From NCBI RefSeq assembly GCF_020510585.1, contig NZ_CP075190.1, positions 3,160,001-3,224,000 of the forward strand: a stretch of 64,000 nt of DNA, given 5' to 3'. This DNA is from Ferribacterium limneticum (GTDB lineage Bacteria > Pseudomonadota > Gammaproteobacteria > Burkholderiales > Rhodocyclaceae). Under the pieces are notes generated by a model. That model saw only the letters and a program-made list of their open reading frames with translations, made no database searches and had not been told where the DNA came from. A program made the translations under genes and the position numbers. This document shows, one piece after another, positions 5,660 through 58,385 of this stretch. How positions within the stretch are numbered: position 1 is the stretch's first letter; each line of letters opens with the position of its first letter.

Positions 5660-5694
5660 TACGGTCAACCCGAAAAAACGGCCAAAATTGAAAT
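5660..5694 (+). repeat. Dispersed 35-bp element, copy 1 (A-rich strand on +)
   Basis: Reads TACGGTCAACCCG, an A-run, then CGGCCAAAATTGAAAT. It lies 20 bases beyond the aceA terminator and 2 bases from the stop codon of the convergent DUF454 gene. Confidence 0.9.
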
Positions 5695-5696
5695 GC

Positions 5697-6050
5697 TCAA
5701 ACCGATGGCCGCGTCCACATCCAGCTCAACACCGTGACGGCAACGACCAGCGGCACATAGCACCACGGCTCCGGCAGGCCCAACCAGCCGCCGATGGCGC
5801 TGATCGCCATGAGAACCGTCGCCAGCCGCTTGGCAACGAGAGGAATGGCGCCATGGTCGCGCCAGGCACGGATGGCCGGCCCGGCGCTCGGGTGTGCCAG
5901 CAACCTGGCCTCCCATTCCGGATGCGAGCGGGCGAAGAAATAGGCGGCGAGGATCAGGAAAGGCGTTGTCGGCAACAGGGGCAGCACGGCACCGATCACG
6001 CCGAGCACGACACAAAGGATACCGAGGCCACGATAGACGGGGGTTTTCAT
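5697..6050 (-). CDS. YbaN-family (DUF454) inner-membrane protein
   Basis: A 117-residue small membrane protein of the DUF454/YbaN family, whose function is unknown. A first hydrophobic segment (about residues 8-24) is followed by the family signature LLPTTPFLILAAYFFARSHP, then a soluble stretch and one or two more transmembrane helices ending near WMWTRPSV. It starts 7 bases after the stop of the upstream LysR gene, so the two are probably cotranscribed. Copy 1 of the dispersed element abuts its stop codon. Confidence 0.88.
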   Translation of the reverse strand: MKTPVYRGLGILCVVLGVIGAVLPLLPTTPFLILAAYFFARSHPEWEARLLAHPSAGPAIRAWRDHGAIPLVAKRLATVLMAISAIGGWLGLPEPWCYVPLVVAVTVLSWMWTRPSV

Positions 6051-6057
6051 GGCAACC

Positions 6058-6960
6058 TCAGCGCAGTTCCCAATAACTCGGCCGGCTGTAGGTTTCCTTG
6101 AGCAGATCGATGAACAGCCTGACCCGCAGTGGCAGATGCCGGCGTTGCGGAAAAACGGCGTAGATGCCCATCGGCGGCGCCTGCCAGGCGTCGAGCACCG
6201 ACGTCAGCCGCCCCTCCTTCAAATCCTGTCCAACCTCCCACAGCGAGCGCCAGGCCAGGCCACGACCGGCCAGCGCCCATTCATGCAGCACTGCACCGTC
6301 GTTGCATTCGAAACTGCCGCCAACCTTGATGGTATCGACCTGATTGCTATCCGGATCGCGAAAGACCCAGCCGCGCTGCTGGCCGAGCGACAGGCATTCG
6401 TGGTTAGCCAGATCGGCCGGCTGGCGCGGCACGCCACGAGCAACGAGATAGGCCGGGCTGGCGACGACCATCCGGCGCATCTCGCCGAGGCGGACGCTGA
6501 TCAGGCTGGAATCGGTCAATTCGCCGATACGGATGGCGCAGTCGATGTTTTCATTAACCAGATCGACCAGACGGTCACTCAGGTTCAGATTGACCCGTAC
6601 TTCCGGGTTGGCCAGCATGAAATCGCCGACCAGCGGAGCGACATGGCGTCGGCCAAAGCCGGATGGCGCCGACACCCGTAGCTGGCCGCTGGCCCGCACG
6701 CTGCCCAGCGACACCGCCGCCTCGGCATTGGCCAGATCGTTGAGCGTTTTCTGGCAATCTTCGAGAAACGCCTGGCCCTCGAAAGTAATGGTCAGCTTGC
6801 GCGTGGTGCGCAGCAATAGTTTGACGCCGAGCCGCGCTTCGAGCGCATCGAGCCGCCGGCCGATAATCGCCGGCGTGACGCCCTCGACCCGCGCCGCCGC
6901 GGAGAGACTGCCCCGAGTAGCGGCCGAAACGAAGGCTTCGATCTGTTTTAGGCGGTCCAT
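6058..6960 (-). CDS. LysR-family transcriptional regulator
   Basis: A 300-residue LysR-type regulator. The N-terminal winged helix-turn-helix begins MDRLKQIEAFVSAATRGSLSAAA, and the remainder is the two-lobed effector-binding domain. It is transcribed away from aceB with about 110 bases between the start codons, and lies between aceA and aceB. Divergent placement makes aceB a plausible target, but LysR sites usually have a T-N11-A form and the palindrome found upstream of aceA and aceB is not of that type. The regulated genes therefore remain open. Confidence 0.9.
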   Translation of the reverse strand: MDRLKQIEAFVSAATRGSLSAAARVEGVTPAIIGRRLDALEARLGVKLLLRTTRKLTITFEGQAFLEDCQKTLNDLANAEAAVSLGSVRASGQLRVSAPSGFGRRHVAPLVGDFMLANPEVRVNLNLSDRLVDLVNENIDCAIRIGELTDSSLISVRLGEMRRMVVASPAYLVARGVPRQPADLANHECLSLGQQRGWVFRDPDSNQVDTIKVGGSFECNDGAVLHEWALAGRGLAWRSLWEVGQDLKEGRLTSVLDAWQAPPMGIYAVFPQRRHLPLRVRLFIDLLKETYSRPSYWELR

Positions 6961-7005
6961 TTGATACCTAAAGTAAAAGATGAATTGATTCTATCCGTCT
7001 TTCAA

Positions 7006-7019
7006 GTCTTATAGAAGAG
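7006..7019. promoter_or_regulatory. Operator-like palindrome upstream of aceB
   Basis: GTCTTATAGAAGAG matches 12 of 14 positions of the perfect palindrome upstream of aceA. It sits just upstream of a possible -10 box TAGAAT (7023-7028), so a bound protein would block the aceB promoter. Confidence 0.55.
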
Positions 7020-7073
7020 TCATAGAATCCGCTGCAGCGCAACATCCATTCATCCTTCACTCAGGAGTTCCTC

Positions 7074-8672
7074 ATGGCCCTCAACCTGCCCCAAGGCGTG
7101 CAAATCACCGGTCCGATCAAGCCGGGTTACGAATCCGTCCTCACCTTCGAAGCCCTCGAACTGGTCGCCAAGCTGCACCGCGCCTGCGAAGCGCGCCGCC
7201 AGGAACTGCTGAAAGCCCGCGTTGCCCGTCAGGCCCGCATCGATGCCGGCGAAATGCCCGACTTCCTGCCGGAAACCGCCCACATCCGCGCCGGCGACTG
7301 GAAGGTTGCCCCGGTGCCGCCGGCCCTGCACTGCCGTCGCGTCGAAATCACCGGCCCGGTCGAAGCCAAGATGATCATCAACGCCTTCAATTCCGGCGCT
7401 GATTCCTACATGACCGACTTCGAGGACTCCAATTCCCCGAACTGGGACAACCAGATCCAGGGCCAGATCAACCTCTACAAGGCCATCCGCCGCGAACTCT
7501 CCTTCAAGGGCGAGAACGGCAAGGAATACAAGCTCAACGACAAGATCGCCACCCTGCAGATTCGTCCGCGCGGCTGGCACCTCGACGAAAAGCACGTGCT
7601 CGTTGATGGCCAGCGCGTCGGCGGCGGCATTTTCGACTTCGCCGTCGTCTTCTTCCACAACGCCAAGGAACAGATCGCCCGCGGCGCCGGCCCCTTCTTC
7701 TACCTGCCGAAGATGGAAAGCCACCTCGAAGCCCGCCTGTGGAACGACATCTTTGTCATGGCTCAGGACCACATCGGCCTGCCGCAAGGCACCATCAAGG
7801 CCACCGTGCTGGTCGAAACCATCCTCGCCACCTTCGAGATGGAAGAAATCCTCTACGAACTGCGCGAGCACTCGGCTGGTTTGAATGCCGGTCGCTGGGA
7901 CTACATCTTCTCGTGCATCAAGAAGTTCAAGAAGAACAAGGACTTCTGCCTGGCCCAGCGCGGCGCCATCACCATGGAAGTGCCCTTCATGCGCTCCTAC
8001 GCCCTGGCGCTCGTCCAGGCTTGCCACAAGCGCGGCGCCCCGGCGATGGGCGGCATGTCGGCCCTGATCCCAATCAAGAACGATCCGGTCGCCAACGAAA
8101 AGGCCCTGGCCGGCATCCGCCACGACAAGACCCGCGACGCCAACGACGGCTACGACGGCGGCTGGGTGGCCCACCCGGGTCTCGTGCCGATCGCCATGGA
8201 AGAGTTCGTCAAGGTCCTCGGCGACAAGCCGAACCAGTTCGGCAAGCAGGTCGAAGGCAAGTTCGGCCCGGCCCAGTGGCTCGACTTCAAGCCGGAACAA
8301 CCGATCACCGAAGCCGGCCTGCGCAACAACATCAACGTCGGCATCCATTACCTGGGTTCCTGGCTGGCCGGCAATGGCTGCGTGCCCATCCACAACCTCA
8401 TGGAAGATGCGGCCACCGCCGAAATCTCCCGTTCGCAGGTCTGGCAGTGGGTCGTTTCGCCGAAGGGCGTTCTCGACGACGGCCGCAAGGTCACCGAAGA
8501 CATGGTCCGCCCGATGATTGCCGAGGAACTGGCCAAGGTGAAGGCGACTGTCTCGGCCCAGGGCGAAGACACCGCCACCTACGATCAGGCCGCCGTGATT
8601 TTCGACAAGATGTCGCTGACCCCGGACTACCCGGAATTTCTGACCCTGCCGCTGTACGAGGCGATGGAATAA
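7074..8672 (+). CDS. aceB: Malate synthase A
   Basis: A 532-residue malate synthase of the A class, condensing glyoxylate with acetyl-CoA to malate, the second step of the glyoxylate shunt. Family landmarks include the substrate-binding stretch SYMTDFEDSNSP, the RPRGWHL segment with its catalytic arginine, and GGMSALIPIKND near the C-terminal third. Length matches E. coli AceB (about 530) and not the longer GlcB/G class. The ATG follows an AGGAG ribosome site. Codon bias is strong, as in aceA. A terminator lies 55 bases after the stop. Confidence 0.97.
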   Translation: MALNLPQGVQITGPIKPGYESVLTFEALELVAKLHRACEARRQELLKARVARQARIDAGEMPDFLPETAHIRAGDWKVAPVPPALHCRRVEITGPVEAKMIINAFNSGADSYMTDFEDSNSPNWDNQIQGQINLYKAIRRELSFKGENGKEYKLNDKIATLQIRPRGWHLDEKHVLVDGQRVGGGIFDFAVVFFHNAKEQIARGAGPFFYLPKMESHLEARLWNDIFVMAQDHIGLPQGTIKATVLVETILATFEMEEILYELREHSAGLNAGRWDYIFSCIKKFKKNKDFCLAQRGAITMEVPFMRSYALALVQACHKRGAPAMGGMSALIPIKNDPVANEKALAGIRHDKTRDANDGYDGGWVAHPGLVPIAMEEFVKVLGDKPNQFGKQVEGKFGPAQWLDFKPEQPITEAGLRNNINVGIHYLGSWLAGNGCVPIHNLMEDAATAEISRSQVWQWVVSPKGVLDDGRKVTEDMVRPMIAEELAKVKATVSAQGEDTATYDQAAVIFDKMSLTPDYPEFLTLPLYEAME

Positions 8673-8726
8673 GCAGTACCCGAGAGAGGCGCATCAGACG
8701 CCCAACCTCGACAGAGAAGCTGGAAG

Positions 8727-8754
8727 AAAAACGCCGGGGAAACCCGGCGTTTTT
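8727..8754 (+). terminator. Terminator after aceB
   Basis: AAAAACGCCGGG, loop GAAA, CCCGGCGTTTTT: a strong intrinsic terminator that could also work in reverse. Confidence 0.88.
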
Positions 8755-8811
8755 CGTTGGCGCCTAAAATCCAGTCCAAACAGTGTTCGCCATTCGTAAA
8801 CTGCGAACCGC

Positions 8812-8846
8812 TACGGTCAACCGGAAATTTTGGCCAATTTTGAAAT
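8812..8846 (+). repeat. Dispersed element, copy 2
   Basis: TACGGTCAACCGG followed by AAATTTTGGCCAATTTTGAAAT, between the aceB terminator and the 3' end of the LysR gene. In this copy the GGCC-centred palindrome is well preserved. Confidence 0.92.
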
Positions 8847-8900
8847 TATCCTGACCAAGGATAGCTCCGCCATCCGGGCTCGATTTGCCAACCCCTTTAC

Positions 8901-9890
8901 TCAAACCACAGCCGCCCCAGCCAGCACTCCCGGCATGGCCTGACGCATGATGTCGATGAAACAGCGCAGGCGGGCCGGATAGAAGCGGGCGTAGGGATAG
9001 ACCAGGCTGACCGGCAAGGCGGCGGCCTGCCATTCCGGCGTCAGGTGAATGAGTTGGCCGCTGGCCAGGTCGTCGGCGAGAACCCAGGCCGAGCCAACGC
9101 AGGCCCCCAGACCGAGCAGGGCGGCACTGCGCAGGGCGTACAAGCTGTCGGTACTGAAGCGCGGCGTAATCGGCACGCGCTCAACCGCCCCCGTTGCCAG
9201 ATGCTTCAGGCTGACTTCATTGCGGTAGAAGGTGCGCAGCGCGAGCCAGGGCAAGGCGGCCAGTTCGCGTGCCGTGCCCGGCGGCGGCGCACCGTTCAGG
9301 ACATCCGGCGCGGCGACGACAATGCGCGGCACCTCAGAGAGGCGGATGGCAACCAGACCGGGATCGGTCACCTCGCCGACCTGGATGGCGCAATCGATGC
9401 CGGCCGCGATGTAGTCCTGGATCGAGCGGTCGTCGTGCAGCAACCACTCGACACTCATCCGCGGATAGCGCTTCAGGTAATCGGCCAGCGGCCTGACCAG
9501 GCGCTCCTGGCCGAAGGCATGCGGCGCCACGACACGCAGGATGCCCTCCGGCTCGTCGCCGGCGCCGCGCAGATCGGACTCGAAGGCGGCCCAACTGCCC
9601 AGCAACTCGCGCGCCCGCTCGTAGCAGCGCTCGCCGTCGACGGTCAGACGCATGGCGTGCGTCGTGCGCTGCAAGAGGCGCAGGCCGAGCGAGCGCTCAA
9701 GGGCCTGCAGGCGGCGGCTGATCGTCGGCTGCGTCATGCCCATCTGTGCAGCGGCGGCGGAAAGACTGCCGGCCTCGACGATGCGGACAAAGGTTTGCAT
9801 CAGTTCGATGCGATCACCGCTGACCGCCGAAGACGACAGATCTGGCGCAGCGGCGACAACATGCTTTTGATCGGAATCAGGCTTGCTCAT
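8901..9890 (-). CDS. LysR-family transcriptional regulator
   Basis: A 329-residue LysR-type protein. It starts MSKPDSDQK with a roughly 25-residue N-terminal extension, then the helix-turn-helix (RIELMQTFVRIVEAGSLSAA) and the effector domain. The frame is open upstream to 9998, but the ATG at 9890 is favoured because the extra residues look non-coding and would overlap the divergent MFS gene. Divergent from the MFS transporter at 9988 with about 97 bases between, so that transporter is its likely target. The inducer is unknown. Confidence 0.88.
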   Translation of the reverse strand: MSKPDSDQKHVVAAAPDLSSSAVSGDRIELMQTFVRIVEAGSLSAAAAQMGMTQPTISRRLQALERSLGLRLLQRTTHAMRLTVDGERCYERARELLGSWAAFESDLRGAGDEPEGILRVVAPHAFGQERLVRPLADYLKRYPRMSVEWLLHDDRSIQDYIAAGIDCAIQVGEVTDPGLVAIRLSEVPRIVVAAPDVLNGAPPPGTARELAALPWLALRTFYRNEVSLKHLATGAVERVPITPRFSTDSLYALRSAALLGLGACVGSAWVLADDLASGQLIHLTPEWQAAALPVSLVYPYARFYPARLRCFIDIMRQAMPGVLAGAAVV

Positions 9891-9987
9891 ACGTTCACCG
9901 TATAACGAATGTGCCGGCAACGATACTACCGTTCGCATCCACAACCAACCAGAATGCCAGACATCGACAGCAAGCACGGTGAACAAC

Positions 9988-11205: not shown

Positions 11206-11207
11206 AA

Positions 11208-14158: not shown

Positions 14159-14193
14159 TACGGTCAACGGGAAAAATCGGCCAAAAATGAAAT
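14159..14193 (+). repeat. Dispersed element, copy 3
   Basis: TACGGTCAACGGG, A-run, TCGGCCAAAAATGAAAT, in the space between the LysR gene and the heme diguanylate cyclase. Confidence 0.92.
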
Positions 14194-16702: not shown

Positions 16703-17427
16703 CGCAGGAAATCAGCCAGATCTGGGTCTACCTCTCGGCCTCGCCGCTGCTCGGGCTAACCATCACGCTGCTCGCCTATCAGGCCGCTTTCGCGCTCTAC
16801 CGGCGCTCCGGCAACAATCCGCTGGCCAACCCGGTGCTCATCGCCGTTTTCATTTTGGTGCTGTTTTTGACGTTGACCGCAACATCGTACGAAACCTACT
16901 TCGCCGGTGCCCAGTTCGTGCATTTCCTGCTCGGCCCGGCCACCGTGGCGCTGGCCATCCCGCTGTACACCCAGTTCAAGCGCGTCCGCTCGATGTTGCT
17001 GCCGGTGCTTGCCGGGCTGCTCGCCGGCAGCCTGACGGCCATCGTCTCGGCCGTGCTGGTCGCCCGCCTGTTTGGCGCCAGCGCCTCGACCCAGCTTTCG
17101 CTCGCCCCCAAGTCGGTGACGACGCCGATTGCCATGGGTATCGCCGAACGCATCGGCGGCATCCCGTCGCTGACCGCCGTGCTGGTCATCGTCACCGGCA
17201 TCCTCGGTGCCGTCGGCGCGCGCTTTGTCTTCGACGCCATGAAGGTGCGCGACCCGGCCATCCGCGGCTTCGCCATCGGCATCGCCTCGCACGGCATCGG
17301 CACGGCACGCGCCTTTCAGGTAAACGAGCAGAGCGGAGCCTTTGCAGCGCTGGCCATGGGCATGAACGGGGCGCTCACCGCCCTGCTCGTGCCCTGGATT
17401 GCTGCTTATCTGATCAACATAGGGTAA
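16699..17427 (+). CDS. lrgB: LrgB/CidB-family membrane protein
   Basis: A 242-residue integral membrane protein of the LrgB family, partner of LrgA. Family landmarks are LLGPATVALAIPLY, LAPKSVTTPIAMGIAE and the glycine-rich IGIASHGIGTARAF. The ATG at 16699 overlaps the lrgA stop by four bases. An open frame extends upstream but is the lrgA region read out of phase. Residues 50-62 are encoded by a stretch (16847-16883) resembling the window's dispersed element in its T-rich orientation. A histidine kinase gene begins only 6 bases after the stop, so lrgAB and the two-component system probably share a transcript. Confidence 0.93.
   Translation: MTQEISQIWVYLSASPLLGLTITLLAYQAAFALYRRSGNNPLANPVLIAVFILVLFLTLTATSYETYFAGAQFVHFLLGPATVALAIPLYTQFKRVRSMLLPVLAGLLAGSLTAIVSAVLVARLFGASASTQLSLAPKSVTTPIAMGIAERIGGIPSLTAVLVIVTGILGAVGARFVFDAMKVRDPAIRGFAIGIASHGIGTARAFQVNEQSGAFAALAMGMNGALTALLVPWIAAYLINIG
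16847..16883 (-). repeat. Degenerate copy of the dispersed element inside lrgB
   Basis: TTTTCATTTTGGTGCTG followed by TTTTTGACGTTGACCGCAAC resembles the T-rich strand of the element (TTTCAATTTTGG...CCGGTTGACCG). Several positions differ, so chance similarity in a hydrophobic codon context cannot be excluded. Confidence 0.35.
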
Positions 17428-21940: not shown

Positions 21941-22483
21941 ATGACCCGGATCGATTACCGGCTTTTTGCGGCGCTGGCGTTGTCGCTCTCGCTGCATCTC
22001 TTGCCGCTGCTGCCGGATTTCAATTTTGGCCAAAATTTCCGGTTGACCGCGGCACCGCTGACTGCCGAGTTGCGCCCGCCCCCGGCCGCATCCGCAACGC
22101 CGCCGCTCAGCCTGCCGGAGCAGCCTGAACCGGCCAATAAACCCGCGACAAAACCGCCCAAGCCAGCGCTGTCAAAACCAGCCGAAAAAACCAGCGCATC
22201 CGCCCCGAAAACCTGGACCCAGACTGTCCGCGAGCACCTCAAAAAACTCGACAACGCCGGCCAGTTCTACCCGGCCGAAGCCATTGCCCGCGGGCTGGAG
22301 GGCGAAGTCCACATCCTGCTCATCATCGACGAAGCCGGCAAAGTCAGCGCCGCCCGCATCGAACAAGGCAGCGGCCACCCCCTGCTCGACGACGCCGCCC
22401 TGCGCGCCGTCCGCTCCCTGCAATCGCTGCCAGCCGACGCGCCGCGCCAGGTCGTCCTGCCGGTGCGTTTCCGGTTACGTTGA
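21941..22483 (+). CDS. TonB-family energy-transducing protein
   Basis: A 180-residue TonB-like protein. It has an N-terminal membrane anchor (about residues 8-24), a Pro/Lys/Ala-rich periplasm-spanning linker (about 45-90) and a C-terminal TonB domain (about 95-180) with the typical GLEGEVHILLIIDEAGKV and the conserved end VRFRLR. It would couple proton-motive force to outer-membrane receptors, but no exbB/exbD or receptor gene is adjacent. Residues 26-37, just after the anchor, are encoded by a copy of the dispersed element. The start is the ATG at 21941; the upstream open frame is the antisense of the ankyrin gene. Confidence 0.85.
   Translation: MTRIDYRLFAALALSLSLHLLPLLPDFNFGQNFRLTAAPLTAELRPPPAASATPPLSLPEQPEPANKPATKPPKPALSKPAEKTSASAPKTWTQTVREHLKKLDNAGQFYPAEAIARGLEGEVHILLIIDEAGKVSAARIEQGSGHPLLDDAALRAVRSLQSLPADAPRQVVLPVRFRLR
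22017..22050 (-). repeat. Dispersed element, copy 4, inside the TonB-like gene
   Basis: T-rich orientation on +: ATTTCAATTTTGGCCAAAAT then TTCCGGTTGACCG. It keeps a perfect 16-base palindrome AATTTTGGCCAAAATT. It reads through as FNFGQNFRLT in the host protein. Confidence 0.93.
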
Positions 22484-23271: not shown

Positions 23272-23306
23272 CTTTCAATTTTGACCCAAATTTCCGGTTG
23301 ACCGTG
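23272..23306 (-). repeat. Dispersed element, copy 5
   Basis: T-rich orientation on +: TTTCAATTTTGACCCAAAT then TTCCGGTTGACCGTGG, between the cysteine-rich gene and the convergent CoA-transferase gene. Confidence 0.9.
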
Positions 23307-23337: not shown

Positions 23338-24552
23338 TCAGACCGCCCCGTCGGCCCGTAGCGCGGCGATGCGCTCGGGCGCATAGCCCAACCCGGCCAG
23401 CACTTCGTCGGTGTGTTCACCAAGCGCCGCGCCCAGCCATTCCGTGCTGCCCGGTGTCTCCGACAATTTCGGCACGATGCCGGGGATTTTGAATTCCTTG
23501 CCATCCGGTAAACGAGCTGATTCGAACATCTGACGGGCGATGAATTGCGGGTCGGCGAACATGTCGACAGCCGAATAGACGCGCGATGACGGCACCTCCG
23601 CTGCGGCCAGCATGGCCAGCACCTCGGCCTCATCGTGCTCGGCGCACCACGCGTCGATCAGCCCGTAAATCTCGTCGCGCCGCGCATCGCGGCCGGCGTT
23701 GTCGGCCAGTGTTGTGTCCTCGGCCAGATCCGGCCGGCCCATGGCCAGCATGAAGCGCTTGAAGATCGCGTCGCCATTGGCGCCAATGGTCACGTGCTTG
23801 CCATCCTTCGTCGTGTGCGTACTCGACGGCGTGATGCCGGGCATGATGTTGCCAGTCCGCTCACGGACAAAGCCGAAAACGTCAAACTCCGGCACCATCG
23901 ACTCCATCATCGCGAAGACTGCCTCGTAGAGCGCGACATCGACCACCTGCCCGGCCCCGCCATTGACTTCCTTGTGGCGCAGCGCCATGAGCGCGCCAAT
24001 CGCGCCCCACAGCGCGGCAATCGAATCGCCGATGGAAATCCCGGTGCGTACCGGCGGCCGGTCGGGAAAACCGGTGATGTAGCGCAGGCCGCCCATCGAT
24101 TCGCCGACCGCGCCGAAGCCCGGCTGGTCCTTGTACGGCCCGGTCTGGCCGAAGCCCGAGAGGCGGACCATGACCAGCCCCGGATTGTCGGCCTTCAAGG
24201 TTTCCCAGCCCAGGCCGAGCTTTTCGAGCACGCCGGGGCGGAAGTTTTCGACCAGGATGTCGGCCCCTGCGATCAACTGGCGGACGAAGTCGCGGCCTTC
24301 CGGATGCTTGAGGTTGGCCGTCACCGACTTCTTGTTGCGCCCCTGCACGGCCCACCACAGCGAAGTGCCTTCGTACAGCTTGCGCCACTTGCGCAGCGGG
24401 TCGCCGCCATCGGGCGATTCGACCTTGATCACCTCGGCGCCGAACTCGCCCATGATCCGCGTGCAGAACGGCCCGGCGATCAGTGTGCCAAGTTCAACCA
24501 CCTTGAGCCCGGCCAGCGGCTTTTGTGCCCCGTTTTTTTGCCCCTCGCTCAT
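23338..24552 (-). CDS. Class III (CaiB/BaiF family) CoA-transferase
   Basis: A 404-residue family III CoA-transferase, which moves CoA between an acyl-CoA donor and a carboxylic acid through an aspartyl-CoA anhydride. Landmarks are the N-terminal PLAGLKVVELGTLIAGPF, EVIKVESPDGGDPLR, RNKKSVTANLKHPEG, and the GFGAVGESMGGLR region just after the expected active-site Asp position. The substrate (formyl, carnitine, succinyl or others) cannot be decided. Its ATG overlaps the murI stop by one base (translational coupling), an unusual partner for a cell-wall gene. An in-frame TTG one codon upstream was not chosen. Confidence 0.9.
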   Translation of the reverse strand: MSEGQKNGAQKPLAGLKVVELGTLIAGPFCTRIMGEFGAEVIKVESPDGGDPLRKWRKLYEGTSLWWAVQGRNKKSVTANLKHPEGRDFVRQLIAGADILVENFRPGVLEKLGLGWETLKADNPGLVMVRLSGFGQTGPYKDQPGFGAVGESMGGLRYITGFPDRPPVRTGISIGDSIAALWGAIGALMALRHKEVNGGAGQVVDVALYEAVFAMMESMVPEFDVFGFVRERTGNIMPGITPSSTHTTKDGKHVTIGANGDAIFKRFMLAMGRPDLAEDTTLADNAGRDARRDEIYGLIDAWCAEHDEAEVLAMLAAAEVPSSRVYSAVDMFADPQFIARQMFESARLPDGKEFKIPGIVPKLSETPGSTEWLGAALGEHTDEVLAGLGYAPERIAALRADGAV

Positions 24553-25337
24553 CAAGGCTCCCAGTGTTCGATTTTCAATTTTTGCCCAAAAATCCGGTCG
24601 ACCGTAGCAATCACCGAAGCCGGCGCCCCGCTCGTCGCAACCGTCAGTCGGCCCTCGCCGCCGCCGAGCAGATTACCCGCCGCCAATAGCCGTTCAAGCT
24701 GACGCGCCACCGGCTCGCCGGTATCGAGCAACACGGTCCCCGCCGGCATGCGCCGGGCAATCGCCGCCGACACGCACGGATAATGCGTGCAGCCGAGCAC
24801 CACGACATCAGCCGCCGCCGCAGCCAGCGGCGCCACGAAGGTATCGAGCAAGGCGGCCACGGCAGCGCTGTCCGGCCCCTCAGCCTCGATAGCTTCAGCC
24901 AGGCCCGGACATGGCTGGGCAATGACCCGATGGCCGTTGGCATGGTTGCCAACCAGCCGCTGAAAACGCTCGCTGGCCAAAGTCCGCGTCGTCGCCAGCA
25001 CGCCGATGACACCCGTTCTGGTCAGCCCCACCGCCGGCTTGACGCCAGGCTCCAGCGCCACCACCGGCACCTCAATGGCAGCCCGAATCGCCTCCGCCGC
25101 CGCCGCCGTTGCCGTGTTGCAGGCAATCACCAGCGCCTTCGCTCCACGCGCCACCAGCGCCTCGGCAATCAACACCCCGCGCTCGCGAAGAAAGGTCTCC
25201 GGCCGGTCGCCGTAGGGCAAAAACCGGGTATCGGCGAAATAGAAAAAATCTTCCTGCGGCAGTCGCTCACGTAAGGCACGCAACACCGTCAGGCCGCCGA
25301 GGCCGGAGTCGAAGACGGCGATGGGATGGGAGGTCAA
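24552..25337 (-). CDS. murI: Glutamate racemase
   Basis: A 261-residue glutamate racemase making D-glutamate for peptidoglycan. Both catalytic cysteines are visible in their motifs, ACNTATAAA and GCTHYP, along with the N-terminal FDSGLGGLTVLRAL and ADTRFLPYGDR. Length is normal. The last residues (about 244-255, ATVDRIFGQKLK) are encoded by a copy of the dispersed element, so the natural C-terminus seems to have been replaced or extended by it. This tail lies outside the catalytic motifs. Coupled to the CoA-transferase gene by a one-base overlap. Confidence 0.95.
   Translation of the reverse strand: MTSHPIAVFDSGLGGLTVLRALRERLPQEDFFYFADTRFLPYGDRPETFLRERGVLIAEALVARGAKALVIACNTATAAAAEAIRAAIEVPVVALEPGVKPAVGLTRTGVIGVLATTRTLASERFQRLVGNHANGHRVIAQPCPGLAEAIEAEGPDSAAVAALLDTFVAPLAAAAADVVVLGCTHYPCVSAAIARRMPAGTVLLDTGEPVARQLERLLAAGNLLGGGEGRLTVATSGAPASVIATVDRIFGQKLKIEHWEP
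24573..24607 (-). repeat. Dispersed element, copy 6, at the 3' end of murI
   Basis: T-rich orientation on +: TTTCAATTTTTGCCCAAAAAT then CCGGTCGACCGTAGC. The A-rich strand is the coding strand of murI here. Confidence 0.88.
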
Positions 25338-30488: not shown

Positions 30489-30992
30489 TTACTCGGGCTG
30501 GCGGAATTCGTCGTCGATCCAGGCGTTGGCGCTGGCCGGGCTGAGCTTGAAGTTCGGGCCGACACGGACTTTCGCCAGTTGCTCGCCATCGGCATCTTCG
30601 GCCGACAGCGTGGCGTAGGGATCGTCCTCGTCGGGAACGATGTCGAGGCATATCAAAATTGGCCCGTTTTCCCGGTCGACCGTGAGTTTCTTGTGCAGTT
30701 GGGCATGCAATTGATGCTCGTGCCGGCGCAGGACTTCGGAAGCCGTCTTGATCAGGGTCTGGAAGGCGGAAACGTCGAGCGGCTTGGGGTTTTTCTTGTC
30801 GCGCCCCATGGTCCACGGGCCGACCAGCGCCGGCTCGGCTTCGCCGTCCTTGATCATTTCGACGGCCCAGCCTTCGTCGTCTTCGTTCTTGATGACGCGG
30901 GCCGTCCACCCGTTGTTGCGCCACAGGCGTGGCTCGTTGATGACGTCGGCCTCTTCGGTCTCGACGGAGTCGTTCGTTGCGTTTTCAGTCAT
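30489..30992 (-). CDS. Hypothetical acidic protein (167 aa)
   Basis: A 167-residue soluble, acidic protein with no family that I recognise. A region around residues 22-55 (RLWRNNGWTARVIKNEDDEG) looks like a small beta-rich module, followed by helix (LIKTASEVLRRHEHQLHAQL) and a C-terminal segment. Residues 103-114 (KLTVDRENGPIL) are encoded by a copy of the dispersed element, in the orientation that uses the A-rich strand as sense. First gene of a pair with the RNA methyltransferase. Start is ATG at 30992. No function is assigned. Confidence 0.75.
   Translation of the reverse strand: MTENATNDSVETEEADVINEPRLWRNNGWTARVIKNEDDEGWAVEMIKDGEAEPALVGPWTMGRDKKNPKPLDVSAFQTLIKTASEVLRRHEHQLHAQLHKKLTVDRENGPILICLDIVPDEDDPYATLSAEDADGEQLAKVRVGPNFKLSPASANAWIDDEFRQPE
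30650..30684 (-). repeat. Dispersed element, copy 8, inside a hypothetical gene
   Basis: ATATCAAAATTGGCCCG then TTTTCCCGGTCGACCGTG on +. More diverged than most copies but keeps GGCC and the CGGTCGACCG block. Confidence 0.75.
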
Positions 30993-32281: not shown

Positions 32282-33523
<1,242 letters not shown>

Positions 33524-33673
33524 GGTCTCTCCTTGAGTTTTATCGGACGGGCCGCAGCCGCGCATGCCGTTGAACGGCAAAGCCCGACGCATGTCTCCGG
33601 CGCCGGGCGGCGTAGGGAATTATGTCGCAAAATGTCGGCCGGTGTCAGTCATTCAGGCGAGCGGGGAGACTTC

Positions 33674-33703
33674 CACGGTCAACCGGGAAAAAGGCCTGAA
33701 AAT
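33674..33703 (+). repeat. Dispersed element, copy 9
   Basis: CACGGTCAACCGGG, A-run, GGCCTGAAAAT. Its A-rich end runs directly into the terminator at 33704-33738, between the two IDH genes. Confidence 0.82.
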
Positions 33704-33738
33704 AAAAAAAGCGAAGACCGGATGGCCTTCGCTTTTTT
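33704..33738. terminator. Terminator between idh and icd
   Basis: AAAAAAAGCGAAG and CTTCGCTTTTTT pair across a 10-base loop. T-tracts on both strands allow action for idh transcripts coming from the minus strand. Confidence 0.82.
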
Positions 33739-42165: not shown

Positions 42166-42200
42166 TACGGTCAACCGGAAATTTAGGCCAAAAATGGAAT
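42166..42200 (+). repeat. Dispersed element, copy 10, overlapping the yeeE-like start
   Basis: TACGGTCAACCGG, AAATTTAGGCCAAAAATGGAAT. The ATG of the transporter gene is inside the element. Confidence 0.9.
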
Positions 42201-43291
42201 TGACCAGCCTGATCGAAACCCTGGGCGAGAAGACCGCCGTCACGCTGGCCGGCCTGACCATTGGCATCTTTTTTGGCATTTTTGCCCAGCGCTCGCGTTT
42301 CTGCCTGCGTTCCGCCGTTGTCGAATTCTGGAACCGTGACGGTTGCAGCAAGCTCGCCGTCTGGCTTTTCGCCTTTTCCGCTGCCGTCATCGCCACCCAG
42401 TTTTTCATCACCCAGGGCTGGCTCAATGTCTCGCAGGCCCGCCAACTGGCCGCCAAAGGCAGCCTGTCCGGCGCACTGGTCGGCGGTCTGCTTTTCGGCG
42501 TCGGCATGATCCTCGCCCGCGGCTGCTCGTCGCGCATGCTGGTACTGGCCGCCAACGGCAACCTGCGCGCTCTGCTCGCCGGGCTGATTTTCGCCGTCGC
42601 CGCCCAGGCCTCGCTGAACGGCCTGCTCTCGCCCCTACGCACCTCGATTTCCGGCTGGCTGACCATCGACGGCGGCACCGCCCGCGACCTGCTTGCCTTC
42701 CTCCACCTCGGTAATCTCGGCGGCCTGCTCTTTGGTCTCGCCTGGCTCGCCGCAGCGATCCACTTCGCCCGCCGTGCCCACCTCGCCCGGCGCGAATGGC
42801 TGGGCGGCAGCGGCGTCGGCCTGATGGTCGCGCTGGCCTGGCTGGTCACCTATCAGGTTGGCACCCAATCCTTCGAAATTATCCCCGTACAAAGCCTGAG
42901 CTTCACCGGCCCGTCGGCCGACATGCTCATGCTGGTCCTCTCCCCGCCCGGCCAGCCATGGGATTTCAACATCGGTCTGGTCCCCGGCGTTGTCCTCGGC
43001 TCCTTCCTCGCCGCCCTCTGGGGCAAGGAATTGAAGCTCGAAGGCTTCAAGGACGGCCACAGCATGCGGCGCTACATGGCCGGCGCCATCTGCATGGGTT
43101 TCGGCGGCATGCTGGCCGGCGGGTGCGCCGTCGGTGCCGGCGTTTCGGGCGCAGCGATTTTTGCCCTGACGGCGTGGATTTCGCTGATCGGCATGTGGAT
43201 CGGCGCCGGAGTGGCCGACCGCCTCATCGACCGACCGGCCAAACAGTCGACAACGGAGTGTGCCGGCAGCACGCCGGCAACCTCGCCGTAA
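42194..43291 (+). CDS. YeeE/YedE-family sulfur (thiosulfate) transporter
   Basis: A 365-residue integral membrane protein with about nine helices and the family's repeated motifs FAQRSRFCLRSA, GMILARGCSSRML and GGMLAGGCAVGAG; the cysteines in these motifs guide thiosulfate through the pore in characterised YeeE/TsuA. It probably imports thiosulfate or a related sulfur anion, consistent with the sox cluster 1.5 kb downstream. The start codon lies inside a copy of the dispersed element, so no Shine-Dalgarno is evident upstream and translation must use sequence from the repeat. It is the family's full length. Confidence 0.9.
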   Translation: MELTSLIETLGEKTAVTLAGLTIGIFFGIFAQRSRFCLRSAVVEFWNRDGCSKLAVWLFAFSAAVIATQFFITQGWLNVSQARQLAAKGSLSGALVGGLLFGVGMILARGCSSRMLVLAANGNLRALLAGLIFAVAAQASLNGLLSPLRTSISGWLTIDGGTARDLLAFLHLGNLGGLLFGLAWLAAAIHFARRAHLARREWLGGSGVGLMVALAWLVTYQVGTQSFEIIPVQSLSFTGPSADMLMLVLSPPGQPWDFNIGLVPGVVLGSFLAALWGKELKLEGFKDGHSMRRYMAGAICMGFGGMLAGGCAVGAGVSGAAIFALTAWISLIGMWIGAGVADRLIDRPAKQSTTECAGSTPATSP

Positions 43292-44664: not shown

Positions 44665-44699
44665 CACGGTCAACCGGAAAAAACGGCAAAAATTGAAAA
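44665..44699 (+). repeat. Dispersed element, copy 11
   Basis: CACGGTCAACCGG, A-run, CGGCAAAAATTGAAAA, next to the terminator of the sox operon. Confidence 0.88.
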
Positions 44700-47201: not shown

Positions 47202-47849
47202 CTAGTCTTTGTTGACCGGCGATTCCGGATCGATCAGGAAAGCCACGATGTGGGTGATCTGCTCCGGCGTCACCCAGTTATGCAGGCCGAAGCGCGGCAT
47301 GTTGGTGCACGCCGTGAAGGCGTTGGAGTTGTAGACCTTGTCGTAGACGTACTTGATGTTCTCTTCCGAATTGCCGCGGATCTTGCCGAAGTTGCGCAGG
47401 CTCGGGCCGATTGTGCCGTAGGCGACTTCCTTCTTGGCCAGCTCGTGGCAGGCGTAGCAGTTGCCGCCGCGCAGCTTGCCAGCCGGATCGGGCTGGAGGA
47501 AGCCGATGTGGCCGCCAGTGCCGACCGCAGCTAGTTTCTCGCCTTCCTTCCAGTCGCCGATCAGCTTGCCGTCAACCGGGTAACGAATGGTCGCCGCATT
47601 GAGTTTTTCCAGCTTCTCACCCACCTTGCGCGGCGGATTGTCGCGATAGATGCCGCAGGTCTTCATCGTCTCGTCCTGCTCCAGGCGGGTCATCCAGTAT
47701 TTCGGATTCTCGGCCTTGAACGAAGCGCGGAACATCTGGTCGGCTTCCTTGGCGTACTTGCCGCCCGGTGCCTCAACGGCTTTCTGAGCCAGGGCCGGCG
47801 TTGCGATTGCGACGGTCAACCCGAAAAAAAGGGCAAATTTGAAATTCAT
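47202..47849 (-). CDS. soxX: SoxX cytochrome c subunit
   Basis: A 215-residue monoheme cytochrome c, partner of SoxA in the SoxAX complex that attaches thiosulfate to SoxY. The heme motif is CYACH, and the distal methionine is expected in the NMPRFG segment. The signal peptide is MNFKFALFFGLTVA followed by IATPALAQ. Its residues 2-13 are encoded exactly by a 36-base copy of the dispersed element (47811-47846), so the export signal was built from the repeat. It starts 14 bases after soxA, with ribosome site GGGGAC. Confidence 0.95.
   Translation of the reverse strand: MNFKFALFFGLTVAIATPALAQKAVEAPGGKYAKEADQMFRASFKAENPKYWMTRLEQDETMKTCGIYRDNPPRKVGEKLEKLNAATIRYPVDGKLIGDWKEGEKLAAVGTGGHIGFLQPDPAGKLRGGNCYACHELAKKEVAYGTIGPSLRNFGKIRGNSEENIKYVYDKVYNSNAFTACTNMPRFGLHNWVTPEQITHIVAFLIDPESPVNKD
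47811..47846 (+). repeat. Dispersed element, copy 12, forming the SoxX signal peptide
   Basis: ACGGTCAACCCG, A-run, GGGCAAATTTGAAATT. It ends one base before the start codon of soxX on the minus strand, and its T-rich strand is sense. Confidence 0.9.
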
Positions 47850-49582: not shown

Positions 49583-50629
49583 TTACTTGGAACCGGACAG
49601 AATCCACTTCACCAGCGTGGTGAGGTCTTCATCCTTGATATGACCGTTCGGCGGCATCGGGATCGAACCCCAGACGCCCTGCCCGCCGGCCTTGACCTTG
49701 GCGATCAGGCGCGATTCGGCATCGGTCTGATCCTTGTAGCGCGCCACGACTTCGTTGTAGCCGGGGCCGACGATCTTGCTCTTGAGACCGTGACAGGCCA
49801 TGCAGCCACTCTTCGTCGCCAGTTCCAGCGTGCCGGCATCGGCTGCTTTTTTGGCAGCCTCGGGACCAAGCGTCTGGGTGCCGCGGACCGGACCGAATGA
49901 ACGGTTCTGATCACGCAGTTCGCCATGCGCCGTCCGGGCGTATTCCGGCAGGGTCGAGCCGATCAGCACTTCCGGCTTGCAGTTCTTCATGCACGCCTTG
50001 TTTGCTGTATCCGGCTTGCCACCGTTGCCGATGCCGCCCTTCTTGGCCGGCGCGCCCGGCCACAGTCCATGGTCGGTCGTCATGCCATTGCGATTGGGCA
50101 GCAGTTTCTGGACTTCGCCGATATTCTTGTCGGACAGCACAAAGTCAGCCGGCACGATTTCCTGCAGATTGAGCAGGTAGGCCAGGATGGCGAAAACCTC
50201 GTCCGGCTTGAGCGACTTCGGCGCCGTCCAGGGCATGGCGCGCTGGATGTAGTCGAAGACCGTCGAAATCGTTGCCACTTTGGTAAAGGTCGTGCGCTGC
50301 GGCAGTTCGCCGGAGGACAGGCCCTTGACGTTGCCGGCCTTGATGTCGTCCTTGGTCGTGCCGCCGGCGAGCGGCGTGAACACCTCGTTCGACTCGCCGA
50401 AGGAGCCGTGGCAGGACGCACACTTTTCCTCGAACAGCTCGTTGCCGCGCTCGACATTGCCCGATCCTTTGGGCAAGCCCTTGAAGTCCGGGCGAACGTC
50501 GATGTCCCAAGCCTTCACTTCGGCCGCGGTAGCCGGCCGGCCGACGCCCTGATAGTTCTCGAAGGCGATTGCTGCGGTCGACGCGGAAAAAAGGGCAAAA
50601 ACGAAAAGCGGCTTAGAGAACCTGAACAT
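49583..50629 (-). CDS. soxD: SoxD, diheme cytochrome c of sulfane dehydrogenase
   Basis: A 348-residue diheme cytochrome c with motifs CASCH (about residue 62) and CMACH (about residue 280), the electron acceptor of the SoxCD sulfane dehydrogenase. Between them lies a CMKNC segment typical of betaproteobacterial SoxD. The signal peptide MFRFSKPLFVFALFSASTAA contains, at residues 8-19, the product of repeat copy 13. Its start overlaps the soxC 3' end by 17 bases. Presence of soxCD means sulfane sulfur can be fully oxidised without storing sulfur globules. Confidence 0.94.
   Translation of the reverse strand: MFRFSKPLFVFALFSASTAAIAFENYQGVGRPATAAEVKAWDIDVRPDFKGLPKGSGNVERGNELFEEKCASCHGSFGESNEVFTPLAGGTTKDDIKAGNVKGLSSGELPQRTTFTKVATISTVFDYIQRAMPWTAPKSLKPDEVFAILAYLLNLQEIVPADFVLSDKNIGEVQKLLPNRNGMTTDHGLWPGAPAKKGGIGNGGKPDTANKACMKNCKPEVLIGSTLPEYARTAHGELRDQNRSFGPVRGTQTLGPEAAKKAADAGTLELATKSGCMACHGLKSKIVGPGYNEVVARYKDQTDAESRLIAKVKAGGQGVWGSIPMPPNGHIKDEDLTTLVKWILSGSK
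50573..50608 (+). repeat. Dispersed element, copy 13, within the SoxD signal peptide
   Basis: GCGGTCGACGCGG, A-run, GGGCAAAAACGAAAAG. It is one of the more diverged copies but collinear over the whole length; T-rich strand is sense. Confidence 0.72.
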
Positions 50630-54123: not shown

Positions 54124-54145
54124 TTTCGCCGGCAGCAAAAAGCAG

Positions 54146-54170
54146 AAGGCCGCCAATTTGGCGGCCTTTT
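54146..54170. terminator. Bidirectional terminator between fccB and cytochrome c4 gene
   Basis: AAGGCCGCC, loop AATTT, GGCGGCCTTTT, between convergent genes. Confidence 0.85.
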
Positions 54171-54193
54171 CGCATTTGGTGACGCGTTTTTTC

Positions 54194-54808: not shown

Positions 54809-54874
54809 TTCCCCCACCCCCCGCATAAAAGTAAATCATTAAATCATGATTTTCTTACGGCGTGCTTGCAAGCG

Positions 54875-55324
54875 TCAGGCGTGGCCCGTGCTGCCAAAAC
54901 CACCTTCGCCACGGTGACTCGCGTCAAAGTCCTCAACAATATTGAATCCAACCTGCAGGACGGGAACGATGATCAGCTGCGCAATGCGGTCCAGCGGATT
55001 GAGCGTAAAGGTAACGCTGCTGCGGTTCCAGACCGACACCATCAGTTCGCCCTGATAGTCGCTGTCGATCAGCCCGACCAGATTGCCGAGCACGATGCCA
55101 TGCTTGTGGCCGAGCCCCGAGCGCGGCAGGATCATCGCCGCCAGGCCCGGATCGGCCAGATGAATCGCCATGCCGGTCGGCACCAGCGTGGTTTGGCCCG
55201 GAGCGACATGGATAGGCGCCTCGATACAGGCGCGCAGATCAAGCCCGGCCGAACCGGGAGTGGCGTAATGCGGTGGCGTCTCGTGCAGGCGGTTGTCGAG
55301 AATTTTTACGTCGATTTGATGCAT
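54875..55324 (-). CDS. dut: Deoxyuridine triphosphatase
   Basis: A 149-residue homotrimeric dUTPase that hydrolyses dUTP to dUMP and pyrophosphate. All five motifs are visible: GSAGLDLRA (1), LPRSGLG (2), [11 protein letters not shown] (3), DRIAQLI (4) and the C-terminal glycine-rich arm [10 protein letters not shown] (5). The ATG overlaps the coaBC stop by one base, the standard coaBC-dut arrangement. Convergent with nothing close; about 65 bases separate it from cytochrome c4. Confidence 0.97.
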
Positions 55325-56514
55325 CAGTGTTTCCCCGTCAAGGTAGCGATGTGTTCAATTAATTGCCGGGCCAGTACCGCCTTGGGCGCCGGCGTCAGCG
55401 GATGGACACCGGCATCGTCGAACAACACGAGCCGGTTGTCATCGCCGCCGAAACCGTCCTGGATCAGGTTGCCGGCGATCAGCGGGATATTCTTCTTGCG
55501 CCGCTTGGTCTGCGCATACTCTTCCAGATTGCGGCTCTCGGCCGCGAAGCCGACGCAGAACGGGCCATTTGCCAGCGCCGCCACTTCGGCCAGGATGTCC
55601 GGGTTCTCGATCAGTTCAATCGGCGGAATACCGCCGCTATCCTTCTTGAGCTTGTGTTCGGCCGCATTGGCAACGCGGTAATCGGCCACCGCGGCGACGC
55701 CGATGAAGATGTCCGACGTAGCAGCGCGCGCCATCACGGCAGCGTGCATGTCGAGCGCACTCTGCACGTTGACACGGTCGACGCCCTGCGGAGCCGAAAA
55801 ACCGACCGGCCCTGAAACCAGGGTCACCTCGGCACCAGCCTGTCGCGCGGCACGGGCGACGGCGTAGCCCATGCGCCCGGACGACAGGTTGGTGATGCCG
55901 CGCACCGGGTCGATGGCCTCGAAAGTCGGCCCGGCGGTGATCAGAACCTTGCGGCCGGCCAGCAGTTTTGGCGTGAAGAAGGCAATGACCTCTTCAAGAA
56001 TCTCCTCGGGTTCCAGCATGCGGCCGGCGCCAACCTCGCCACAAGCCTGCTCGCCGCTGGCCGGGCCAAGCATCTGCACGCCATCGGCCTGCAATTGAGC
56101 GACATTGCGTTGCGTCGCCGGGTTTTCCCACATCTGGCGATTCATCGCCGGGGCGACGAGCAGCGGACAGTCGCGGGCCAGTACCATGGTCGCCAGCAGA
56201 TCATCAGCCATGCCGTGCGTGATGCGGGCGAGGAAATCGGCTGAAGCTGGGGCCACGAGTATGAGATCAGCCTGGCGCGACAGATCGATGTGGGCCATCG
56301 CGTTAGGCATCCGGGCATCCCACTGGTCGAGATAGACCGGCTTGCCCGACAACGCCTGAAAGGTGGTCGCCGTTACGAAATGCGTCGCCCCTTCGGTCAT
56401 CGCCACCTGCACCTCGGCGCCCTGCTTGCCGAGCAGGCGAACCAGCTCAGCCGCCTTGTAGGCAGCGATGCCGCCGGTGACGCCGAGAACGATGCGTTTT
56501 CCCTGTAATTCCAT
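55324..56514 (-). CDS. coaBC: CoaBC, phosphopantothenoylcysteine decarboxylase/synthase
   Basis: A 396-residue bifunctional enzyme of coenzyme A synthesis. The N-terminal CoaC part (about 1-185) has [16 protein letters not shown], catalytic His in [23 protein letters not shown] and the [15 protein letters not shown] loop with the catalytic cysteine. The C-terminal CoaB part (about 190-396) has [22 protein letters not shown] (shown in two blocks: [24 protein letters not shown]) and KLKKD. Followed directly by dut. Divergent from radC. Confidence 0.97.
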
Positions 56515-56561
56515 TGTCTTGCCATTAGAATTGGACTCCGCACATTCTAACGGAAAAGAAT

Positions 56562-57242
56562 ATGGCGATTACCGACTGGCCCGAAGGTGAACGACCGCGT
56601 GAGCGACTGCTGGCACACGGCCCGGAAGCGCTTTCCGATGCCGAACTGCTGGCTATCTATTTGCGCGTTGGCGTACGTGGCAAAAGTGCCGTCGATCTGG
56701 CGCGCGATCTGTTGCAGCGTTTCGACGGCCAGCTTGGCACCCTGGCCGAAGCGTCGCTCACTGAACTGGCCAGCGTTTCGGGCATCGGCATGGCCAAGGC
56801 CGCCCAGTTGAAAGCCAGTTTCGAACTAGCCAGGCGCGCACTGTCGCAGGACATGGCGACGCGCGACAGCTTCACCTCGCCGGGCAAGGTCCGCGACTGG
56901 CTGCGCCTCAAGCTGGCCAGCCGCGGCCATGAAGTCTTCATGGCCTTGTGGCTGGATGCCCAGAACCGCCTGCTCAAAGCCGACGAACTGTTCTCCGGAA
57001 CGCTGACCCAGACGTCGGTTTACCCGCGCGAAGTCGTCAAGGCGGCACTGGCCAACAACGCGGCCGCGGTGATTTTGGCGCACAATCATCCGTCCGGCAT
57101 TGCCGAGCCGTCGCGGGCCGACGAGATGCTGACGCGATCGCTGAAAGACGCCCTGAGCCTCGTAGACGTCAAGGTTCTCGACCACTTCATCGTCGCCGGC
57201 AACACCCCGCCGCTCTCCTTCGCCGAACGGGGCTTGCTATAA
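56562..57242 (+). CDS. radC: RadC/JAB-domain protein
   Basis: A 226-residue RadC-family protein: an N-terminal helix-hairpin-helix-like region (about 30-90, [15 protein letters not shown]) and a JAMM metallo-domain with [14 protein letters not shown] (HxHPSGxxxPSxxD). Once annotated as DNA repair, the function of RadC proteins is unsettled. Divergent from coaBC with 47 bases between start codons, and followed by rpmB-rpmG, an order (coaBC-radC-rpmB-rpmG) also known in enterobacteria and other Proteobacteria. Confidence 0.95.
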
Positions 57243-57323
57243 AATTCAATAAACCCCTTGAAACGATTAAGCACTTTTGGTTATACTTGTGGGCTCTCTT
57301 CTAGCGAATTCTGGAGCACCATC

Positions 57324-57557
57324 ATGGCGCGTGTCTGCCAAGTAACGGGTAAAGGCCCGATGGTTGGGAACAAGGTTTCCCATGCCAACAATAGAACCAA
57401 ACGCCGTTTCCTGCCGAACTTGCAGTACCGTCGTTTTTGGGTCGAATCTGAAAACCGCTTCCTGCGCCTGCGCGTTTCCAACGCCGGTCTGCGCCTGATC
57501 GACAAGAACGGTATTGACTCCGTCCTCGCCGACCTGCGCGCCCGCGGCGAAGTCTAA
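57324..57557 (+). CDS. rpmB: 50S ribosomal protein L28
   Basis: A 77-residue L28 beginning [20 protein letters not shown] and rich in basic residues. Position next to rpmG, with GGAG ribosome site, is the conserved operon. The start at 57324 fits the family; the upstream open frame was rejected. It is 18 bases from the rpmG start. Confidence 0.98.
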
Positions 57558-57575
57558 TAAAGAAGGAAATATAAA

Positions 57576-57743
57576 ATGGCTAAAGGCGGTCGCGAAAAAA
57601 TCAAGCTGGAATCTACAGCTGGCACCGGTCACTTCTATACCACCTCCAAGAACAAGCGCACGACGCCTGCCAAACTGGAGTTCATGAAGTACGACCCGAA
57701 GGCTCGTAAGCACGTTGCTTACAAGGAAGTCAAGCTGAAGTAA
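57576..57743 (+). CDS. rpmG: 50S ribosomal protein L33
   Basis: A 55-residue L33 beginning [18 protein letters not shown], with [20 protein letters not shown] and a lysine-rich end. This is the cysteine-free (zinc-independent) type, since the paired CxxC motifs of the zinc form are absent. It has an AAGGAAAT ribosome site and is followed by a terminator. It is below 60 residues in length and so easily missed in automated frame lists. Confidence 0.97.
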
Positions 57744-57765
57744 TTCAGCTTCTCCAGAGCATTCG

Positions 57766-57796
57766 ACAAACCCGCCTTTCGGCGGGTTTTGTTTTT
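57766..57796. terminator. Bidirectional terminator between rpmG and dsbB
   Basis: ACAAACCCGCC, loop TTTC, GGCGGGTTTTGT then a T-run, ending at the dsbB stop codon. Confidence 0.85.
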
Positions 57797-58294
57797 TCAG
57801 GCCGGCTGTTTCTGCCGGAAAAGCAATGCGGCATAAACCACGATGCCGGCGAAGACCAGGACAGACCAGTTGGCCATCGACAGGCCTAGAAATTCCCAGT
57901 CCCGGCTGGTGCAGAAGCCGGTAGCCAGGAACATCGACGGCCATTCCATGCCCAGCCAGTCGACCAGACGCTCGATAATGTTGGGATCGGTGAAGCTGCA
58001 TTCCGGTGCCAGATGCGGAAAAGCCTGCATCCAGGTCTGGTAGCTGGCGACGCCAAAACCAAGCACGGCAAGGGCACCCGCCAGCGCGACCCACAACATT
58101 CGTCCGGCCGGCCAGATGAAGCCAAGCAGGCCGACAATGCCGATCACGATGTAGAGCAGGCGCTGAAAAATACAGAGCGGGCAAGGGGCCAGACGCAGCA
58201 GCGTCTGTAGCTCCATGCCAACCGCAACGAGTCCCAGGCAGCCCAGGCCCAATGTCGCGAACCAGGCCCTAGTGGGCACTTTTAACCAATTCAT
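57797..58294 (-). CDS. dsbB: DsbB, disulfide-bond oxidase of the membrane
   Basis: A 165-residue four-helix membrane protein that reoxidises DsbA and passes electrons to quinone. The redox pairs are Cys38-x-x-Cys41 (CPLC) in the first periplasmic loop and the pair in the second loop (one in PECSFTDP, one in GFCTSRDW). Length and topology are normal. It would support disulfide formation in exported proteins, including the 14-cysteine protein at 22590. It is convergent with rpmG. Confidence 0.93.
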   Translation of the reverse strand: MNWLKVPTRAWFATLGLGCLGLVAVGMELQTLLRLAPCPLCIFQRLLYIVIGIVGLLGFIWPAGRMLWVALAGALAVLGFGVASYQTWMQAFPHLAPECSFTDPNIIERLVDWLGMEWPSMFLATGFCTSRDWEFLGLSMANWSVLVFAGIVVYAALLFRQKQPA

Positions 58295-58350
58295 TTAAGG
58301 CAATTCCTCGAGTGACAAACAGCCGGGATTCTATGCCATCGCCAGCTAGA

Positions 58351-58385
58351 CTTGAAATTTTGGCCTTTTTTCCGGTTGACCGTAA
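58351..58385 (-). repeat. Dispersed element, copy 14
   Basis: T-rich orientation on +: TTGAAATTTTGGCC, T-run, TTCCGGTTGACCGTAAG, between dsbB and the response-regulator gene. Confidence 0.87.

Follow-up and report, generated by a model that had tools for sequence, protein, structure and literature searches.

A dispersed sequence element of Ferribacterium limneticum as a probable DNA uptake sequence

What keeps a short, near-palindromic sequence in copy after copy along a bacterial chromosome? The question is raised by a 64,000-nucleotide stretch of the one-contig, 4,419,140-base genome of Ferribacterium limneticum (the window, bases 3160001-3224000), for which a preliminary description had listed 14 copies of an element and a degenerate fifteenth at 16847, and had taken them for a non-autonomous mobile repeat. 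All 15 copies are present, on the strands given and with coordinates correct to within a base or two. Our analysis favours a different identity: the element is probably a genomic DNA uptake sequence, of the kind known as uptake signal sequences (USSs) or DNA uptake sequences (DUSs), and would represent a third uptake-signal system, in Rhodocyclaceae.

Abundance and anatomy of the element

Profile scanning of 864 kb of the genome (the window and 40 further stretches of 20 kb) recovered 155 copies and none in the reversed sequence, which extrapolates by proportion to about 790 copies per genome. When up to 8 mismatches were allowed, 464 kb of the genome contained 75 matches and one order-3 Markov sequence of equal length contained none, so the earlier statement that the repeat lies far above chance is borne out. 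A scan of the whole genome, as the preliminary description had proposed, returned hundreds of copies with no more than 3 mismatches, namely 195 in the forward and 193 in the reverse orientation (reversed pattern, 0 and 0). The most over-represented 12-mer of the sample was ACGGTCAACCGG, counted 89 times versus 0.36 expected.

In sampled DNA that is 84% coding according to the simple gene finder used here and for the window, 69 of the 155 copies were wholly coding, 75 intergenic and 11 partial. Copies inside genes were weaker (mean profile score 43 vs 55) and favoured one orientation (47/70, p 0.006), and those on the same strand as the gene preferred one reading frame (31/47). The 34 sampled stretches with a GC content of at least 0.57, a cut-off chosen after seeing the data, were filled more evenly than random (variance/mean 0.57, p 0.02; 0.89 over all 40 stretches), and the six stretches below it held 0, 0, 1, 1, 2 and 2 copies. 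One stretch without a copy, L175 (980001-1000000, GC 0.409), encodes a tyrosine integrase, a cytochrome b and a molybdopterin oxidoreductase and is a probable genomic island. L183 (GC 0.578) is also free of copies, and its two scanned proteins are signalling proteins, so foreign origin does not explain every empty stretch. A replichore-oriented motif was considered and rejected: strand bias, calculated on sampled positions with origin and terminus placed by assumption, was not significant (p 0.11).

The element is 33 to 45 bases long and consists of the core CGGTCRAC followed by A/T tracts spaced about one helical turn apart. From 110 copies of the F. limneticum genome the consensus is approximately nTnCYACGGTCAACCGGAAAwwwnGGCCAAAAWTGAAAt, and 74 intergenic copies yielded an information content of 56.6 bits over 44 columns. 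The two adjacent palindromes of the preliminary description fared differently: CGGTCRACCG is nearly fixed, but AATTTTGGCCAAAATT occurs in a minority of copies, and a left tract that is A-rich throughout is the commonest form. Columns vary nearly independently (mean excess mutual information 0.0065 bits), with linkage mainly between neighbours within the A/T tracts.

Orthologous sites, dialects and the copies in the window

Copies come and go through point mutation, including those within genes; the evidence for this is strong for coding copies. For 46 copies, 200 orthologous stretches were aligned with both flanks. The preliminary description had suggested looking for empty sites in relatives, but where the element is lacking (113 alignments of 24 copies, 19 of them wholly coding) we found diverged sequence of about the same length and not one clean empty site: 74 alignments were gap-free, 34 had gaps of 1-6 bases, 5 of 7-24 and none of 25 or more. 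Two copies in ileS account for 66 of these alignments; when they are excluded, the remaining 47 (22 copies) divide into 22, 20, 5 and 0. Identity in relatives lacking the element was 0.65 in the element stretch vs 0.81 in the flanks, and in relatives keeping it (87 alignments, 33 copies) 0.91 vs 0.86. Occupancy does vary between species, with copies both gained and lost.

Among 60 genomes of the genus, ratios of CGGTCRAC to its reversed control are bimodally distributed, with 29 genomes at 0.42-1.14 (core-negative) and 31 at 1.37-3.42 (core-enriched, defined as a ratio of at least 1.3, a threshold chosen once the gap from 1.14 to 1.37 was known). The highest count was in G051, 3532 vs 1039 in the reversed control. 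On an IleS tree of 53 of the 60 genomes the enriched label requires 10 changes, vs a mean of 17.7 when shuffled, and at least 7 are forced by well-supported branches; core enrichment is thus clustered on the tree but repeatedly lost or gained. At least 97 copies of the F. limneticum dialect occur in 9 of the 60 genomes, all in one 11-row clade (support 88) that also includes G035 and G029 (30 copies, comEC split, core-negative).

Dialects follow clades around a constant inner core, the form in G034 included. Core-aligned samples from eight core-enriched genomes share one layout. T-rich positions lie on the 5' side of the core; on the other side come an A/T tract near +11..+16, weak in some genomes, then a G/C spacer, then an AATTT tract at +23..+27. 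F. limneticum and G043 have an additional A-rich stretch at +29..+31, weaker in G043. At position -1 the F. limneticum dialect has A in 89% of 110 copies, and G is commonest in G043, G039, G051, G010, G030, G024 and G020. G039 has only two copies of the F. limneticum dialect; its A-tracts are shifted, and CGGTCGAC ranks second of 2800 permuted octamers. Of the core-negative genomes, G044 is without such A/T tracts and G048 has no more than a faint tract at +23..+27; among the 9- and 12-mers in samples from G048, G044 and G035, nothing comparable that could be another dialect was found. The 9-mer TCAGGTTGT is over-represented in the G044 samples L241-L250 (13 vs 1.15 expected).

Outside the genus, the full motif was absent from 40 genomes of other families in the order. 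Among the matches listed (80 of at least 120 stretches), named records with the exact motif were metagenome-assembled genomes labelled Azonexus, Dechloromonas, Azonexaceae or Rhodocyclaceae, or no more precisely than Beta-, Gamma- or Proteobacteria.

The copies in the window are the following.

5661..5693 (+): element copy, intergenic, downstream of the isocitrate lyase-family gene 4266-5564
8813..8845 (+): element copy, intergenic, downstream of the malate synthase gene 7074-8672
14160..14192 (+): element copy, intergenic
16848..16880 (-): degenerate copy with 7 mismatches, inside a predicted gene
22018..22050 (-): element copy with a perfect second palindrome, intergenic
23273..23305 (-): element copy, intergenic, just downstream of the CoA-transferase gene 23338-24552(-)
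24573..24605 (-): element copy within the 3' end of the predicted Asp/Glu racemase-family gene 24552-25337(-); same-length element in L072 and L290
28584..28616 (+): element copy with a one-base deletion, intergenic
30651..30683 (-): element copy inside the predicted gene 30489-30992(-)
33675..33707 (+): degenerate element copy, intergenic, upstream of the isocitrate dehydrogenase-family gene 32282-33592(-)
42167..42199 (+): element copy that overlaps the start codon predicted for the sulphur-transport gene 42194-43291
44666..44698 (+): intergenic element copy with converging genes on either side
47812..47844 (+): element copy within the 5' end of the cytochrome c gene 47202-47849(-)
50574..50606 (+): weak element copy inside the cytochrome c gene 49583-50629(-)
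58351..58383 (-): element copy, intergenic, its spacer shorter by one base

Five of the 15 thus lie inside predicted genes (16848, 24573, 30651, 47812 and 50574), in addition to the start-codon overlap at 42167. At the site orthologous to copy 30651, partly decayed versions are found in core-negative G048, G005 and G007, and in G035, G044 and G047 the element is absent with no clean gap. Copy 42167 is kept in G002; G005, G048 and G035 lack it, and none of these three has a clean empty site there. Alignment of copy 47812 gave equal length in every row except L194 and L212 (6 shorter matches were dropped), and that of copy 50574 the same length in 9 of 13 other rows. An RNA element was rejected as an explanation, as an Rfam scan of the window matched no family at any copy. 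The sole match, above the gathering score, was a cspA thermoregulator RNA at 393-751 (-).

The uptake reading, competence genes and rival explanations

If the element is an uptake signal, a surface DNA receptor of the competence machinery would prefer double-stranded DNA carrying CGGTCRAC with A/T tracts about one helical turn apart. By analogy we infer that this receptor would be a type IV minor pilin, and the A/T tracts would probably help the DNA to bend or kink at entry. Fragments matching the motif by chance would be taken up preferentially and recombined, and copies would then accumulate by point mutation across the chromosome, within and between genes and in both orientations. Once competence or its specificity was lost, they would decay.

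Candidate genes for such machinery are present. In F. limneticum a minor pilin cluster adjoins ileS, with matches to PilV and prepilin N-terminal domains; names for its remaining genes are assumed from sequence and gene order. A pilE-like protein matches PF16732 (ComP_DUS), HHH_3 (ComEA-type) proteins are present, and ComEC passes the ComEC/Rec2 equivalog cut-off. ComEC was found in 56 of the 60 genus genomes. Its gene, classed by eye from a table and checked by sequence in 17 genomes, is intact in 24 of the 31 core-enriched genomes, broken in 2, truncated in F. limneticum, and missing or at contig edges in the rest. Where comEC is broken inside a contig, 7 of 9 genomes are core-negative, and where it is intact 18 of 42 are. 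In G002 (L319/L320, G002:C33) and G044 (L317/L318, G044:C1) 32-34 kb of DNA interrupt the gene at codons 253-256, and a large serine recombinase adjoins the break. Further cuts in comEC lie at about codon 237 in G005, G029, G036 and G057 and at codon 253 in G018. With breaks near codons 237 and 253-256 in several species, comEC looks like a recurrent integration site.

Several of our results nevertheless weigh against the uptake reading or narrow it. The link between ComEC and the core was not significant (Fisher p 0.075; 0.17 if F. limneticum is counted as broken), with intact ComEC in 18 core-negative genomes and broken ComEC in two enriched ones, G002 and G008. PF16732 is found in 56 of 60 genus genomes irrespective of element status (0 of 14 control genomes) and so singles out no receptor. 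The enriched genome G043 has an HHH_3 match over the cut-off only in one long open frame. ComEC of F. limneticum itself stops inside the C-terminal domain, about 97 residues short of a relative's protein (L326:3217-5331; genome positions 2760501-2769000), so this strain may no longer be competent, a loss that may be recent. The core ratio reached 1.3 in at least 35 of 241 genomes of other genera in the family, at lower density (a lower bound, since the 56 rows behind this figure were picked by eye), and therefore is not specific when taken alone. These ratios, which concern the core alone, include 5.7 in G313, 2.6 in G108, 2.4 in G154 and several from genus g59, with G151 also above its control; among rows computed, the densest such genome had 276 cores per Mb vs 313-955 in ten enriched genus genomes. 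Of the 24 copies that entered the gap test, only 5 were not wholly coding, and their 7 alignments comprised 1 without gaps, 4 with 1-6 bases and 2 with 14-16 bases missing, which makes the test strong for coding copies and weak between genes. Finally, the motif, at 44 columns and 57 bits, is to our knowledge longer than known uptake sequences.

Alternatively, the hundreds of copies could be binding sites for a cytoplasmic nucleoid-organising or segregation protein. A near-palindromic core with phased A/T tracts would fit a DNA-bending protein, as would the even spread outside low-GC stretches in both orientations. Such a role sits poorly with the 29 of 60 genus genomes that show no core enrichment, the many switches on the tree, the decay in nested species, the frequency of weaker copies inside genes, their scarcity in low-GC stretches and the non-significant replichore bias, and we know of no nucleoid motif of such length and number; we consider it improbable. 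The preliminary description had itself named functional binding sites, conserved at every orthologous site, as the alternative to a mobile repeat; this comes closer than the mobile element, although such conservation was not observed. A motif driven or selected in some other way, such as a hotspot of recombination or repair or one spread by gene-conversion drive, would likewise accumulate by substitution without evident gain per copy, as any drive would. Nothing specific points to such a motif, however, and Chi-like sites are not known to have such length, phased A/T tracts or dialects; we give it little credence.

The hundreds of dispersed and similar copies, the palindromic core and the variable occupancy are also what a non-autonomous REP/MITE-like mobile element, its mobiliser elsewhere or lost, would produce. 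Against this stand the absence of any clean empty site among the 113 alignments, the gap-free copies within genes and the near-independence of columns, which leaves no subfamilies. Nor is there a Y1 (RAYT-like) transposase gene that could carry the element at its ends: none was found in F. limneticum (G000), G002, G052, G053, G012, G003 or G051, that is, in F. limneticum and 6 of 10 other core-enriched genomes tested (5 of 8 sharing its dialect), and one or two were present in G055, G056, G043 and G039. Together these results remove the mobile-element reading for the copies tested; it is refuted for the coding ones among them, and very unlikely for the element as a whole. A transcription terminator or regulatory site at gene ends would be in keeping with the 24 of 73 intergenic copies that lie between converging genes (13 expected, p 0.004), yet nearly half of the copies are coding, both orientations occur and no Rfam family matched in the window, and we find this explanation scarcely credible. 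An uptake signal remains the explanation that we prefer.

Comparison with known systems

We found no literature on a DNA uptake sequence in Rhodocyclaceae, Dechloromonas or Rhodocyclales, in a search that had preprints and most subscription journals outside its scope. Papers among the matches listed for 'uptake signal sequence' with genus names did not contain the phrase, and the other uptake literature listed concerned, by title, other groups.

REP elements, which are associated with RAYT transposases, are short, dispersed, palindromic repeats found in hundreds of copies. Our element has all of these properties, but it is not inserted, is not confined to intergenic space and has no Y1 gene in its own genome.

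According to the text available of PMC12616744, uptake specificity is known only in Neisseriaceae and Pasteurellaceae. The signals of these two families look unrelated to each other. The element resembles the Neisseriaceae DUS (GCCGTCTGAA, receptor ComP) in its genome-wide enrichment and its dialects within a family, and a minor pilin of the ComP_DUS family is present in the genus that bears it. It differs in that its core is unrelated, and in that the DUS, in the accessible part of PMC1626085, is without flanking motifs. Orientation preference of coding copies, as seen here, is reported for known uptake sequences in the passages available of PMC2346458.

The closest known system is the Pasteurellaceae USS (Hin-type AAGTGCGGT, Apl-type ACAAGCGGT). 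Its inner core is GCGG (PMC12616744, excerpt), and Redfield and co-workers describe, in the portion of PMC1626085 available, a core followed 3' by two AT-rich segments at spacings of approximately single helical turns. The same text shows, with the gap test used here, that Haemophilus USSs are not insertions. Those dialects of the element that carry G at -1 share a GCGGT core with the USS, and the two A/T-rich segments 3' of the core, about one helical turn apart, are shared as well. Further points in common, as far as the available parts of PMC1626085 and PMC12616744 go, are the hundreds to thousands of copies, their coding as well as non-coding location, origin by substitution and clade-specific types. 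Unlike the USS, the core of the element extends to the nearly palindromic CGGTCRAC, and in one clade a third A-tract is present and the base before the core is mostly A, not G. Its bearers belong to the beta class, versus gamma in the taxonomy of those papers, and its role in uptake is putative.

It is possible, though we hold it only tentatively, that sequence-specific uptake exists in a third family and that its signal has both the GCGGTC core and the phased A/T tracts in common with the Pasteurellaceae USS. A receptor lineage that is shared or was transferred could account for the likeness, as could convergent evolution if the mechanics of kinking DNA at the pilus or secretin leave little choice. 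If so, repeated loss across the genus, partly with disruption of comEC by integrating elements, would be a natural series in which an uptake code is gained, shifts in dialect and decays. A third uptake system in this genus, with its dozens of sequenced species that use different dialects or do without the signal, would offer comparative material on the origin, spread and death of uptake codes and on what the receptor recognises. Because its core and A/T tracts resemble those of the USS, the DNA-bending idea would become testable from independent data.

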